From positions 1 to 50,659 of IMG/VR virus record IMGVR_UViG_3300022699_000112: a DNA stretch of 50,659 nucleotides. One strand, given 5' to 3'. This document shows positions 3,001 through 36,912 of this stretch, piece by piece (within the stretch, counting starts at the first letter, position 1; each line of letters begins with the position of its first letter). Both the position numbers and the translations under genes were made by a program. The notes below the pieces were generated by a model that was given only the letters and a program-made list of their open reading frames with translations, was not told where the DNA came from and ran no database searches. Source of the DNA: a virus.

Positions 3001-4487
3001 AGCACTACAGTGCCGCTACACTGGACAGCGGGGACGAAGAAGCTGAGGACGTTTACTACACGTTCACTACCAACCACGCCGATGTGAACGGGGTCTTTAC
3101 GGCCACGAATCAAACCAACAAAGGCATAGTAAAGATCACCTCTTATGTTTCGTCGGCACAAGTAGCGGTAGAAGTTATCTCTCCAATTTATCAAGAAAGC
3201 GGAACTTCATCGGCTACTCCTATGTGGGCTGAGGGTGCTTGGAGCGATTACCGAGGCTACCCTAAATCCGTAACATTCTTTGGAAATCGTCTCTGGTGGG
3301 CTGGGACGACAAACAACCCACAGACATTATGGGGTTCTAAAGTCGGTTATTATGAAGACCACACCAAGGGTGAAGCAGACGATGCAGCCGTAATCATAGG
3401 TATTTCTGATAACGATGTGTCTTCTATTGAGTGGATATCGGCCTCTCAGAACTTCATGGTGGGTTCTGCTCGCAAGGAGTATATTATCTCGGCGGCAGAC
3501 CGGAATGACCCGATCACCCCGGACGACAACATCGCCAAGCCCCACTCCACAAATGGTTCAATGCACATTCAGCCGGTGGAATTCGGTGGAGGCATGATGT
3601 ACGCTCAGCGGCTTGGTTACAAGATGCTAGTACTCCACTATAAGTATTTAGACGATGCCTACGATTCCGCAGATGCTACGCGACTGGCTTCACATATGTT
3701 CAAATATCTACCGGTCGATATATCGCGTCAGGGTACCCCAGAATCCATTATCTGGGTAAGCCGGGCCGATGGTACCCTCTGTTCATTTAGGTACGACAGA
3801 GACGAGGAAATCGCGGCGTGGAGCCGTATTGTGACTGGTGATGTTTCAGCCAGCCCCACACACGCCATACTGTCCTCGGCGGTCGTAGCCGGAACCCAAG
3901 AAGACAGAATCTGGACACAGGTTGAACGGTACGTCGATGGGGAATTCCGCTATTACATTGAGCGGTTCTCGAATCGCACATTTACCTCTCTTACCGAGGG
4001 TAACTATCTCGACAGCATCCGCACCAGAACTGCGGACAGTCTAGGTCGTCTTACTCGACTGTATGGCCTTGAGGGGCACACCACAACAGTAATGCAGGGG
4101 GCTACTAAGATCGGTACCTACACTGTTCAAGATGGAATGATTACAGGACTGACGGCTAACCAGACATATACAGTCGGTTTACCGTATTCGGCTCATCTAA
4201 AAACAATGCAGTTCGCTGTTCCCGGAGCCGTAGTAGAGGGCAACATTAAACGGATAACAAACATCCTTATTCGTTACGTCCAGACGGAGGGCGGGCAGGT
4301 CGGAGCCATATCCCACGGCCAGAATAATCTGGTTGATCTGGATGCTTCATTCTCTCTATCTTCGGACGATATTGAAGTGTTCTCCGGGGGAGGTTTTGAC
4401 AAGGACGGTCGTCTGGCCCTATACTTCACCGAACCTTACCCGGCTACAATACTGGCGGTCGTGTTTGAGATCGAGATCATTGCATGA
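1..4487 (+). CDS. Adhesin-nozzle fusion protein, residues about 725-2219 (gene begins at 48388)
   Basis: This is the 3' two-thirds of a 2219-aa gene that starts at 48388 and crosses the window ends in frame; base 1 is the second position of codon 725. Seen, in protein numbering: the rest of a right-handed beta-helix to about 937; a Cys-rich motif (GACC...C...C...CADC) about 943-975; a LamG/concanavalin-like domain about 985-1211; three FN3-like repeats of about 100 residues from about 1226, 1328 and 1433; then from about 1543 the C-terminal part of a tail nozzle (T7 gp12-like), with a YEIVTPY...DLHKV segment and a beta-propeller-like remainder. The nozzle N-terminus is a separate gene just upstream of the adhesin (47840-48388). 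The Cys-rich and FN3-like modules recall planctomycete surface proteins (family knowledge, not searched). I infer a polysaccharide-binding or -cleaving receptor-binding protein built into the tail tip. The next gene overlaps by ATGA. Confidence 0.85.
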   Translation, partial: YGHAIGGAHTDCFELRNCDDIEIVANYIHHWKSNAALFINGGGYGRVNRLFIANNIMYNNWGAAHCLQLQNVDTVEVYNNILWGSSSTVWGEFSVAPTTMTNLTLRNNIIGRFFFEQQSWNPAWVADHNFYVTANGYIPGTGDIQGTDPGFTNVPAVTATANTSATIADFQPLNESVITVDAGTTITKVAYDIRRLARPQGSSYDIGPFEYGGIAATGACCNELTGECSITTEANCQHTWLGAGSTCADCHVEEPTPLEGLVVSYNCNEEATDYTATDASGHGTTGYLINTNAGFGAGLTRFDGEGRVFFENIHDGIELDTTDIQTERGSICAAIFPQVVTDTVQPARYVFGHSVNAWSRRIQIYIQDGYLHVGMGDNHSVGANAYAVSVDTWYHVCLTWLDNGITISDGAATGTLTGSGTWQFYVNGTLVTSGTYSGLDFLQAKVRFGNTGLQSEPYDQEAFDGYMDNLKVYDVPLSASQVLTVATNDTPTIVPGPEPIEAPTITNGSVSNIGTTTATIAGSVVDTGGANPTAILYYGTSDEGEVAANWDSSINLGTQLGSIEVALGQLDHNTTYYFRFYASNEGGEDWADSTSSFTTLEITAPTLTQNAASDIGTTSVTLSGTITDEGNDTPRVYVYYGETDEGTVGANWDSFELTTYNESDNTFTITLTGLTADTTYYFRFYAVNDIGGTWGSSTLTFDTNPSGAPTVTNAVASDIGAHEARIGGTVTDVGLENPTVTVYWGTADGGTTPGNWDNSAAFGVQTGAFNTLLTNLNLATVYYYRAYAENSYGSDWADSTQSFSTLEQEPISPDPNEKDDGFIWGSYDNAYEIVTPYSSDEAFDLHKVSRGDVTYIAHENHAPRKLTRYGDKNWVLEVVDFTGGPFLDLNQDSTKTVQYVNGTGGTSGNYYTIGNTGTLDASGHTPFLEQHVGALWEIEHTRNDNSLETPDNTTHATPTGSGIKCKGHWQFDVSNMSGGTPNYTAKIWRKEGNGSWQEYQHYSAATLDSGDEEAEDVYYTFTTNHADVNGVFTATNQTNKGIVKITSYVSSAQVAVEVISPIYQESGTSSATPMWAEGAWSDYRGYPKSVTFFGNRLWWAGTTNNPQTLWGSKVGYYEDHTKGEADDAAVIIGISDNDVSSIEWISASQNFMVGSARKEYIISAADRNDPITPDDNIAKPHSTNGSMHIQPVEFGGGMMYAQRLGYKMLVLHYKYLDDAYDSADATRLASHMFKYLPVDISRQGTPESIIWVSRADGTLCSFRYDRDEEIAAWSRIVTGDVSASPTHAILSSAVVAGTQEDRIWTQVERYVDGEFRYYIERFSNRTFTSLTEGNYLDSIRTRTADSLGRLTRLYGLEGHTTTVMQGATKIGTYTVQDGMITGLTANQTYTVGLPYSAHLKTMQFAVPGAVVEGNIKRITNILIRYVQTEGGQVGAISHGQNNLVDLDASFSLSSDDIEVFSGGGFDKDGRLALYFTEPYPATILAVVFEIEIIA

Positions 4488-34491: not shown

Positions 34492-34667
34492 TAATCTCCT
34501 TTTCCATATCCGATGCACTCAAGCTCACCGTTGTGCTTTGTGTGGATATAATAGAAAGTATCAGTTATTTGCTCTGCAACGATTGCGGCTTCGATCATGT
34601 CTTCAGCGAATATTTCAGCCTCGGCAATCTTGCCCGTATTATCTGTAATTACTACTTTGAATGTCAT
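34491..34667 (-). CDS. 58-aa protein, first gene of the small-gene island
   Basis: ATG at 34667 with a strong SD (AAGGAGATTAAAA). A strand (MTFKVVITDN), a helix rich in Ala/Glu/Ile (IAEAEIFAEDMIEAAIVAEQI) and a final strand pair. Ends TAATG into the next gene. As the first gene after the divergent promoter it should be expressed early. Confidence 0.65.
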   Translation of the reverse strand: MTFKVVITDNTGKIAEAEIFAEDMIEAAIVAEQITDTFYYIHTKHNGELECIGYGKGD

Positions 34668-34812
34668 TTTTAATCTCCTTTAGTACTCTAGGTGTTATCT
34701 TTAACCATAACTCATACGGTCAAAAGGCTATTATAGGGGGGACGAAAATTAAAAATAAAACAATAATTTCATGTCCAGAATACATCTGGCCCGATTCAAT
34801 ACAGGATAAACC
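34668..34812. promoter_or_regulatory. Divergent control region between small-gene island and terS
   Basis: 145 bp. On the minus strand TTGACC with an 18-bp spacer to GATAAC is a fair sigma-70-like candidate for the leftward island. For the rightward side I see only a weak TTATAG and a TTTAACC box; terS has its own SD (AGGATAAACC). The stretch is A/T-rich with a G-run (TAGGGGGGAC). Confidence 0.5.
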
Positions 34813-35304
34813 ATGCAAGAAATAGATTTAGATAAAGTCATATTTAAAGACATCAAGAGCAATAAGCAGAAAATGTTCATCCAGTATTACTGCAATCCAG
34901 AGTCTTCAACATACGACAATGGCACACAATCCTATAAAAGAAGCTATACAAGCAATGATGATAATGTTTGTGCAGTAGAGGCACATCGGTTACTAAGCAA
35001 TCCTAAGATTCAGGATGCTATAAGTTGTTATAGGGCTTATATCCATGAACAGAACGCATTTGAGCTTGATTGGCTTGATAATAACTTGAGAAATCTTTAT
35101 TACAGAGCTATAGAGTCTGAAGATATCAATGCTCAGCACCGTATTTTAAGGACAATAGGCGATAGAATAGGTGCATTCTCCGATGTTAAGCCTGCTGAGG
35201 GTAAAATGATACCTATGACGGAAGAGCAGATGAAGATAGCTACGCGGGTAATGCAGGATATTATGGCTGAGTCCAATAGGAACAAGATAAAAAAGGTAGA
35301 TTAG
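34813..35304 (+). CDS. terS: Terminase small subunit
   Basis: 163 aa; SD AGGA, 6-nt spacer. Helical N-terminus, then KMFIQYYCNPESS, NGTQSYKRSYTSN, a VEAHRLLSNPKIQDAI segment and a C-terminal coiled region: the terminase_2-type small subunit pattern (helix-turn-helix followed by oligomerisation helices). It recognises the packaging site and delivers DNA to TerL. TerL lies 4.6 kb further on, an unusual separation. Acidic/basic tail ending NKIKKVD. Confidence 0.85.
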   Translation: MQEIDLDKVIFKDIKSNKQKMFIQYYCNPESSTYDNGTQSYKRSYTSNDDNVCAVEAHRLLSNPKIQDAISCYRAYIHEQNAFELDWLDNNLRNLYYRAIESEDINAQHRILRTIGDRIGAFSDVKPAEGKMIPMTEEQMKIATRVMQDIMAESNRNKIKKVD

Positions 35305-35456
35305 TACCGGCCATAACTATCTGCTTTTTCGGGTAAATACAAAATGAACACAGATTTATACGAACATACACTAGAGACATACAGGCCAATACCTTGTTCA
35401 GTATATTCCGTGTTCATTGTACAATATCATTGGGTATCAAGAGTTATATAGATGTA

Positions 35457-35537
35457 TAATATCCAGAATTGCCCCCTTCCCTATTTATGTACTCTATATT
35501 ACTAATGAGGTAATGTATGTTTAATATCCAGAATCGC
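35457..35537 (+). repeat. 16-bp direct repeats TAATATCCAGAAT(T/C)GC, 65 bp apart
   Basis: Copies at 35457-35472 and 35522-35537 differ at one base; each follows ATGTAT a few bases earlier. A partial copy (TGTCCAGAATAC) occurs at 34773, before terS. Repeat function unknown; perhaps a terminase or regulator binding site, or promoter duplicates. Confidence 0.75.
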
Positions 35538-35576
35538 TTTGGCTTATGGGGAGAAAGAAGTAATTTAGTAAAAGTA

Positions 35577-35668
35577 GACCCCCACCCTCGGGAACGCCCC
35601 CCTCATGGGTCTTGTAGGGACCCCCGTCAAATAAAAATTTTCAATTTTATAGATTAAGTGGACCCCCC
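35577..35668 (+). repeat. Three GACCCCC boxes at exact 42-bp spacing
   Basis: GACCCCC begins at 35577, 35619 and 35661 (the last with six C). Both intervals are 42 bp, about four helical turns at 10.5 bp per turn, so the boxes would lie on the same DNA face. The segment between the second and third is A/T-rich. Arrays of this kind are expected for a ring-shaped TerS, for HU/IHF-assisted complexes or for initiator binding. Confidence 0.8.
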
Positions 35669-35680
35669 GCGTCGGTTATT

Positions 35681-35956
35681 ATGTTTGATATCTTCTGCCA
35701 CAAGATTTACTTCAAGATAAAAGGGAATCAGTTCGACATCACCCTTGCTGATCTGGTCGACCACATTGTTCGTGGAATCGCTTCGTCAGGCTTTACTGAG
35801 GGCACGAACGTCAATGACCCGGACCTACGGGTACCCCCTGACCCTAAAACGTCTCAGAATGGAAATATGGGGGCAGGCATGGAGGCCGAGTTTAAAAGAG
35901 AGGTATATCGTCTAGCCAAGGATTATTATGAAAGAATGCACAAAGAAACACCTTGA
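35681..35956 (+). CDS. Hypothetical protein downstream of terS region
   Basis: 91 aa; no clear SD. Aromatic N-terminus with a strand (HKIYFKIKGNQFDITL), a helix (DLVDHIVRGIA), a Pro/Gly/Asn-rich middle, then a charged helix. Not a recognised family. Start is uncertain; the GACCCCC array reaches within 13 bp of it. Confidence 0.6.
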   Translation: MFDIFCHKIYFKIKGNQFDITLADLVDHIVRGIASSGFTEGTNVNDPDLRVPPDPKTSQNGNMGAGMEAEFKREVYRLAKDYYERMHKETP

Positions 35957-36637: not shown

Positions 36638-36912
36638 TGGGAACATGGACAGTAGAAATAACCATTTTTGATGAGGCAACCCAGACTGCTAACGTCCGGG
36701 CTGTCCGGGTAGACAGTGCTACGGACGAAAAGTTTGTCTATGAGTGTCGAGCTATTATCTCTACCCCTGAACAGCGTAGTGCTCTCTTGCAACGCATCAA
36801 AGACAAATTCATTGAAGACGAAGCCCGGCAGGGGAGGATTGAAAATATTCTCGCAGGTCTGGCTGATACCGCAACAAACGCACTAAATAATTGGGAGGCC
36901 ACCAATGGCTAA
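36637..36912 (+). CDS. Hypothetical virion-region protein
   Basis: 91 aa; TAATG overlap. Beta start (TWTVEITIFDEATQTANV) with a Val/Asp-rich strand pair, then helices with STPEQRSALLQRIKDKF. Probably a small tail or head component. No family recognised. Confidence 0.6.
   Translation: MGTWTVEITIFDEATQTANVRAVRVDSATDEKFVYECRAIISTPEQRSALLQRIKDKFIEDEARQGRIENILAGLADTATNALNNWEATNG

Follow-up and report, generated by a model that had tools for sequence, protein, structure and literature searches.

A non-coding gap downstream of terS as a candidate terminase recognition and cleavage region in a phage with T7-like late genes

We propose, with somewhat better than even confidence, that the 376-bp gap following the terminase small-subunit gene (terS) in the window, the whole stretch of 50,659 nucleotides analysed here, is where the terminase of this phage, whose late genes are T7-like, recognizes and cleaves the DNA, and that the binding array there is formed by GAACA/TGTTC dyad half-sites. 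The site would be multipartite and of the pac/cos type, and is probably a terminal-repeat boundary. Its elements and the two terminase genes are as follows.

34813..35304, + strand: terS, terminase small subunit, 163 amino acids (PF03592 Terminase_2; phrog_51; 81% identity in L002)
35305..35680, no strand assigned: 376-bp gap from terS to the next ORF, in which every module of the candidate packaging region lies
35346..35415, no strand assigned: candidate TerS-binding dyad array with four half-sites, two GAACA (35346, 35362) and two TGTTC (35395, 35411)
35452..35537, + strand: ATGTWTAATATCCAGAATYGC, present twice at a distance of 65 bp; L008 has a comparable pair (209, 285)
35577..35595, + strand: box 1, GACCCCCACCCTCGGGAAC (also written CCCCCACCCTCGGGAAC), similar to left termini of the Andromedavirus group and to a site in L053
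35595..35602, + strand: additional C-run CGCCCCCC between boxes 1 and 2, outside the 42-bp register and missed in the initial annotation
35619..35650, + strand: box 2 with A/T tract, GACCCCCGTCAAATAAAAATTTTCAATTTTAT, a module kept in L019 and L008
35661..35668, + strand: box 3, GACCCCCC; CCCCCC lies nearby in L008 and only GGGACTCC in L019
39919..41550, + strand: terL, terminase large subunit (phrog_675; GpA_ATPase)

The limits of the gap ignore an unsupported ORF of 46 amino acids (35517-35657) that overlaps boxes 1 and 2. On the + strand, the late genes encode TerS, TerL, a head-tail adaptor, the major head protein and tail proteins (phrog_332, phrog_3437, phrog_394, phrog_376), in an order like that of T7-type phages; the early genes on the opposite strand encode a DNA polymerase, a primase-helicase, a UvsX/RecA-like recombinase and an HU-like protein (phrog_379). 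The assignment of TerS is based on Pfam PF03592 (Terminase_2; 32.7 bits, cut-off 26.1) and phrog_51 (E 2e-10). Between the gap and the gene at 35928 lies an ORF of 91 amino acids (35681-35956) that has no detectable relative and is missing at that place in L019, and which therefore may be a recent insertion. The 50,659-bp virus record carries a 99-bp repeat at both ends, which we rejected as a direct terminal repeat because it lies inside a long ORF and resembles the assembly overlap of a circular map. Searches of the 'phages' collection yielded neither a DNA match to the terS stretch nor a protein match to TerS, a 161-bp element searched at E values up to 10 gave short matches only (best E 0.1), and no relative was found in the genome contigs collection.

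Five relatives have contigs that extend to the place after terS: L019 (on one contig with L002 and L006; TerS 81%, TerL 82%), L008 (TerL 76%; its contig begins after terS), L020 (on one contig with L007; TerL 75%), L023 (on one contig with L052; TerL 47-48%) and L053 (TerL 77% to L023). The other relatives' loci beyond L006-L008 share the gene at 36905 and no more than portions of two or three adjacent genes, with L013, on the L003 contig, additionally sharing terL; as they gave no terS match, we left them out of the gap comparison. L021 and L022 also stop short of terS. The gene order from terS to terL is the same in L019, and conserved non-coding modules immediately follow terS in L019 and occupy the equivalent position in L008. 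Gap alignments of L019 with L008 and of the window with L019 scored above all of 300 shuffles; that of the window with L008 was within chance (p 0.12), and L020 has only 31 bp after terS, with neither gap nor module. The terS of L023 showed no detectable similarity to window TerS. Upstream of terS, the window and L019 share a single TCCAGAA as well as a conserved TATTATAGGGGGG followed by an A-rich tract (window 34731-34770; L019 1630-1670), which may mark the start of a promoter or a second site related to the terminase. Shortly after its C-run and A/T module, L008 carries genes for tRNA-Glu and tRNA-Asn (512-658); no tRNA genes were found in L019, L020 or L003.

The strongest block shared by the window and L019 spans ∼94 bp at about 35345-35437, away from the boxes, and exceeds 300 shuffles. 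It contains the dyad array, GAACA-N11-GAACA / TGTTC-N11-TGTTC, whose spacing of 16/33/16 is the same in the window and in L019 (half-sites at 2303, 2319, 2352 and 2368); only three occurrences of GAACA-N11-GAACA or its complement exist in the window, two of them in the array. The array offers repeated half-sites with conserved spacing adjoining terS. This geometry is absent from L008, L020, L023 and L053. L008 has five GAACA/TGTTC sites within its first 190 bases, and repeats of its own (ACTACATATAGTGTG), with a different spacing; such variation between relatives in repeats adjacent to terS would be expected of TerS-specific binding sites. The dyad array, which the initial annotation did not list, is a better candidate for a protein-binding array than the boxes. 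LexA-type boxes have the spacing GAAC-N4-GTTC; by eye this spacing is absent, and a LexA-type box was rejected.

The dyad could instead bind an initiator or a regulator in a replication origin or transcription control region, with the A/T tract serving as the unwinding element and the C-runs being incidental. The dyad half-sites do adjoin an A/T tract, the repeats with TATAAT or TTTAAT (35452, 35517) could be promoters, gene direction flips near 34.7 kb, and the cumulative GC skew reaches its minimum at 34-35 kb. This minimum, however, follows from gene orientation, which counts against an origin; the polymerase, primase-helicase and recombinase genes lie at 11.9-24 kb on the other strand; and the corresponding place in Andromedaviruses is a terminus rather than a known origin. 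A sigma-70 scan of 34600-35800 found no + strand promoter, promoter-like sites numbering 1 compared with 5.0 in shuffles. We regard an origin or control region as unlikely.

The GACCCCC boxes start exactly where the initial annotation had placed them, at 35577, 35619 and 35661 on the + strand with a start-to-start step of 42 bp (intervals between boxes, 35 bp). They sit in the 376-bp gap adjoining terS, whose identity is backed by both Pfam and PHROG, and the A/T-rich stretch described between two of them was found between boxes 2 and 3. The presence of three copies in this gap is poorly explained by chance: none of 20,000 dinucleotide-preserving gap shuffles contained three (mean 0.089), none of 3,000 contained any 7-mer three times at equal spacing, and only 3 of 535 overlapping 376-bp windows along the record had such a triplet, all three covering the box site. 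That there should be three boxes is nevertheless a selection, as the gap contains five C-runs of four or more, two of them outside the 42-bp register (GCCCCCC at 35595-35602 and TGCCCCC at 35470).

The expected conservation of the boxes in related phages was not borne out: GACCCCC occurs in one of the five relatives' gaps (one copy, in L053) and is missing from L019, L008, L020 and L023, and the 42-bp array is found in none of the five. The proposal that a phased, same-face array of three identical boxes is bound by a protein ring is accordingly not supported, since in addition to the missing array the C-run spacing changes (35 bp in L008 compared with 42 bp between boxes 2 and 3 of the window). 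Where the window has box 2, L019 and L008 retain C5 followed by a few bases and an A/T tract of TGTAAATTTTTT type. At about the place of the box 1 C-run, L019 and L008 have G-runs (GGGGGTGGGG and GGGGGGGCATCGGGG, respectively), and the candidate cut site is therefore not kept among close kin. A match between the window and L053 over box 1 (p 0.017) would fail correction for nine comparisons and overlaps an ORF of 77 amino acids in L053.

These observations also bear on the possibility that the boxes form a local repeat and have no function in common, in which case C-runs arose by slippage or short duplication in a gap unconstrained by coding and the 42-bp step is accidental. Their patchy occurrence among relatives and the five C-runs would fit such an origin, as would the abundance of GACCCCC throughout the record (17 copies on both strands compared with 8.06 expected; none of 100 shuffles reached 17). 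Against it stand the outcome of the 20,000 shuffles and the retention of the box 2 module in L019 and L008, and we consider a purely local repeat rather doubtful, slightly more so than an origin. That the terS transcript carries a structured RNA or a terminator is highly improbable, and this reading was rejected on folding and Rfam results: a G5/C5 stem can be folded in L019 and one terminator-like match exists on the minus strand (35595-35578), but folds in three sequences were not clearly better than shuffles (z +2.03, +0.56 and −0.66), 199 of 200 shuffles folded at least as well as the window, and the sole Rfam match in 34600-35800, to a nematode family, was below the gathering score and outside the gap.

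The reading of the gap as a terminase site draws further on the Bacillus Andromedaviruses, whose TerL belongs to the same family as that of the window (both phrog_675; hhalign E 8e-13, 27% over 456 columns). Three of their records annotate identical terminal repeats of 829-851 bp containing the first gene. End-to-end comparison of six phages (Andromeda, Glittering, Riggi, Blastoid, Finn and Taylor) revealed in all six a terminal repeat of 829-852 bp that includes the gene at the terS position and has its end in G-rich DNA 90-113 bp past that gene. In phage Bolokhovo the gene carries the annotation 'putative terminase small subunit', though no function is assigned to its PHROG. At the left end the sequence is GG(A/G)TCA, then CCCCCACCCCGATGAGG, and at the right end GGCG, then GTGGGTGTGG, or GGCGG, then TGGGTGTGG; the left end begins with a C-run, and the right end finishes in G-rich DNA. 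As in the window, the terS-position gene is followed by a non-coding GC-rich and A/T-rich stretch, and the left end CCCCCACCCC resembles box 1. A 16-position matrix built from three left-end types (Andromeda, 056SW001B and Jayan, the record starts of the latter two being taken as ends without annotation) placed 35580, in box 1, at rank 4 of 101,288 positions, with three better positions elsewhere in the window; by our arithmetic the chance of so good a rank anywhere in the gap is about 0.03. Box 2 (35621) ranked 7,873 and box 3 (35663) ranked 13,571.

The two systems differ in several respects. In Andromedaviruses the left end is situated upstream of the terS-position gene, and the site that follows this gene is G-rich on the + strand, whereas the window has a C-rich site after terS; its GC-rich C-run lies 274 bp after terS (35578), compared with 90-113 bp in Andromedaviruses, which like L019 have G-runs there. 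Window TerS showed no detectable similarity to the terS-position gene of Andromeda, and the window gap did not align beyond chance with four of five Andromedavirus-group gaps (p 0.73, 0.52, 0.39 and 0.43; p 0.03 for the fifth, vB_BpsS-36). No C-run was found upstream of terS as a second, opposite-orientation site bounding a repeat, and a right-end matrix revealed no distinctive site over the window (the best match, 42114 on the minus strand, overlaps a + strand ORF; 37423 was third). The link to Andromedaviruses therefore consists of position, TerL family and one short terminus-like word, which is suggestive, not proof. In L023, GGTGGGTGTG at 3132, ∼148 bp after terS, comprises the same ten bases as the Andromeda right repeat boundary; the accompanying gap alignment gave p 0.09.

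If the Andromedavirus analogy holds, the polarity of the window site is opposite to that of its close kin. One version of this, which we consider improbable, is that the cut site is strand-switched (C-run compared with the G-run of L019 and L008) and the packaged end reversed, such that the chromosome would begin just after terS, with terS at its far right; this would be unlike Andromedaviruses, in which terS lies inside the terminal repeat. In all six Andromedavirus records, imperfect tandem repeats of the type CTMAARGGG, mostly 12-15 bp apart, adjoin the left repeat boundary within the last ∼90 bp before it (L039, L040, L042, L043, L045 and L047, right parts of the records). By its sequence pattern this looks like a candidate terminase-binding array; the available portions of PMC4197329 and PMC6375668 do not mention it.

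Taken together, the evidence for a terminase site suggests a scheme in which the dyad array at 35346-35415 would serve as the binding site of TerS, the A/T tract following box 2 would be bent, perhaps with the help of the phage HU (14026-14301), and cleavage by TerL would fall in or close to the G/C-homopolymer DNA at 35577-35602, with box 1 as the most likely end. In this scheme the modules, their partial conservation, the identities of terS and terL and the repeat geometry of the Andromedavirus records are observed, whereas all protein-DNA contacts, the position of the cut and the packaging mode are inferred. The initial suggestion of TerS acting at a pac/cos site hence survives in part: the modules after terS in L019 and L008, the Andromedavirus repeat boundary and the likeness of box 1 make it plausible, but the phased-box mechanism is not retained.

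In phage lambda, the cos site next to terS is multipartite, comprising repeats for binding, a bend and a site of nicking, and it lies upstream of the lambda terS gene. The window resembles it in that a multipartite candidate region adjoins terS and TerL has a GpA_ATPase domain, and differs in that the candidate site is downstream of terS. The parts of lambda cos are cosQ, cosN and cosB (abstract of PMC4669245). In the accessible passages of PMC4197329, cluster H terminases are described as weakly similar to SPO1, and Andromedavirus-type terminases group weakly with SPO1-type direct terminal repeats (also PMC6375668, for vB_BpsS-36). SPO1-like and Bacillus cereus-group phages with direct terminal repeats have sequence-specific ends with inverted motifs, as stated in the available part of PMC5418689. 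They are similar to the window in TerL grouping; unlike the window site, the ends given there (AGGT..., ...ACCT) are not C-rich. The SPO1 record starts with GTCCCGCCCCC, which is the start of the record and not necessarily a physical end.

A scan of viral contigs for GGGACCCCC-N0-10-AAAAATTTT yielded six loci, two of which (L024 and L026, near copies) have the motif ∼550 bp before an ORF resembling, by eye, a terminase large subunit; with a terminase-like ORF nearby in just two of the six, we claim no general motif. To our knowledge, packaging sites have been determined experimentally for few phages and for hardly any uncultured ones. If a terminus region follows terS throughout this terminase family, sequence alone could suffice to predict genome ends, and the fast-changing arrays beside terS would reveal how TerS and its site change together.
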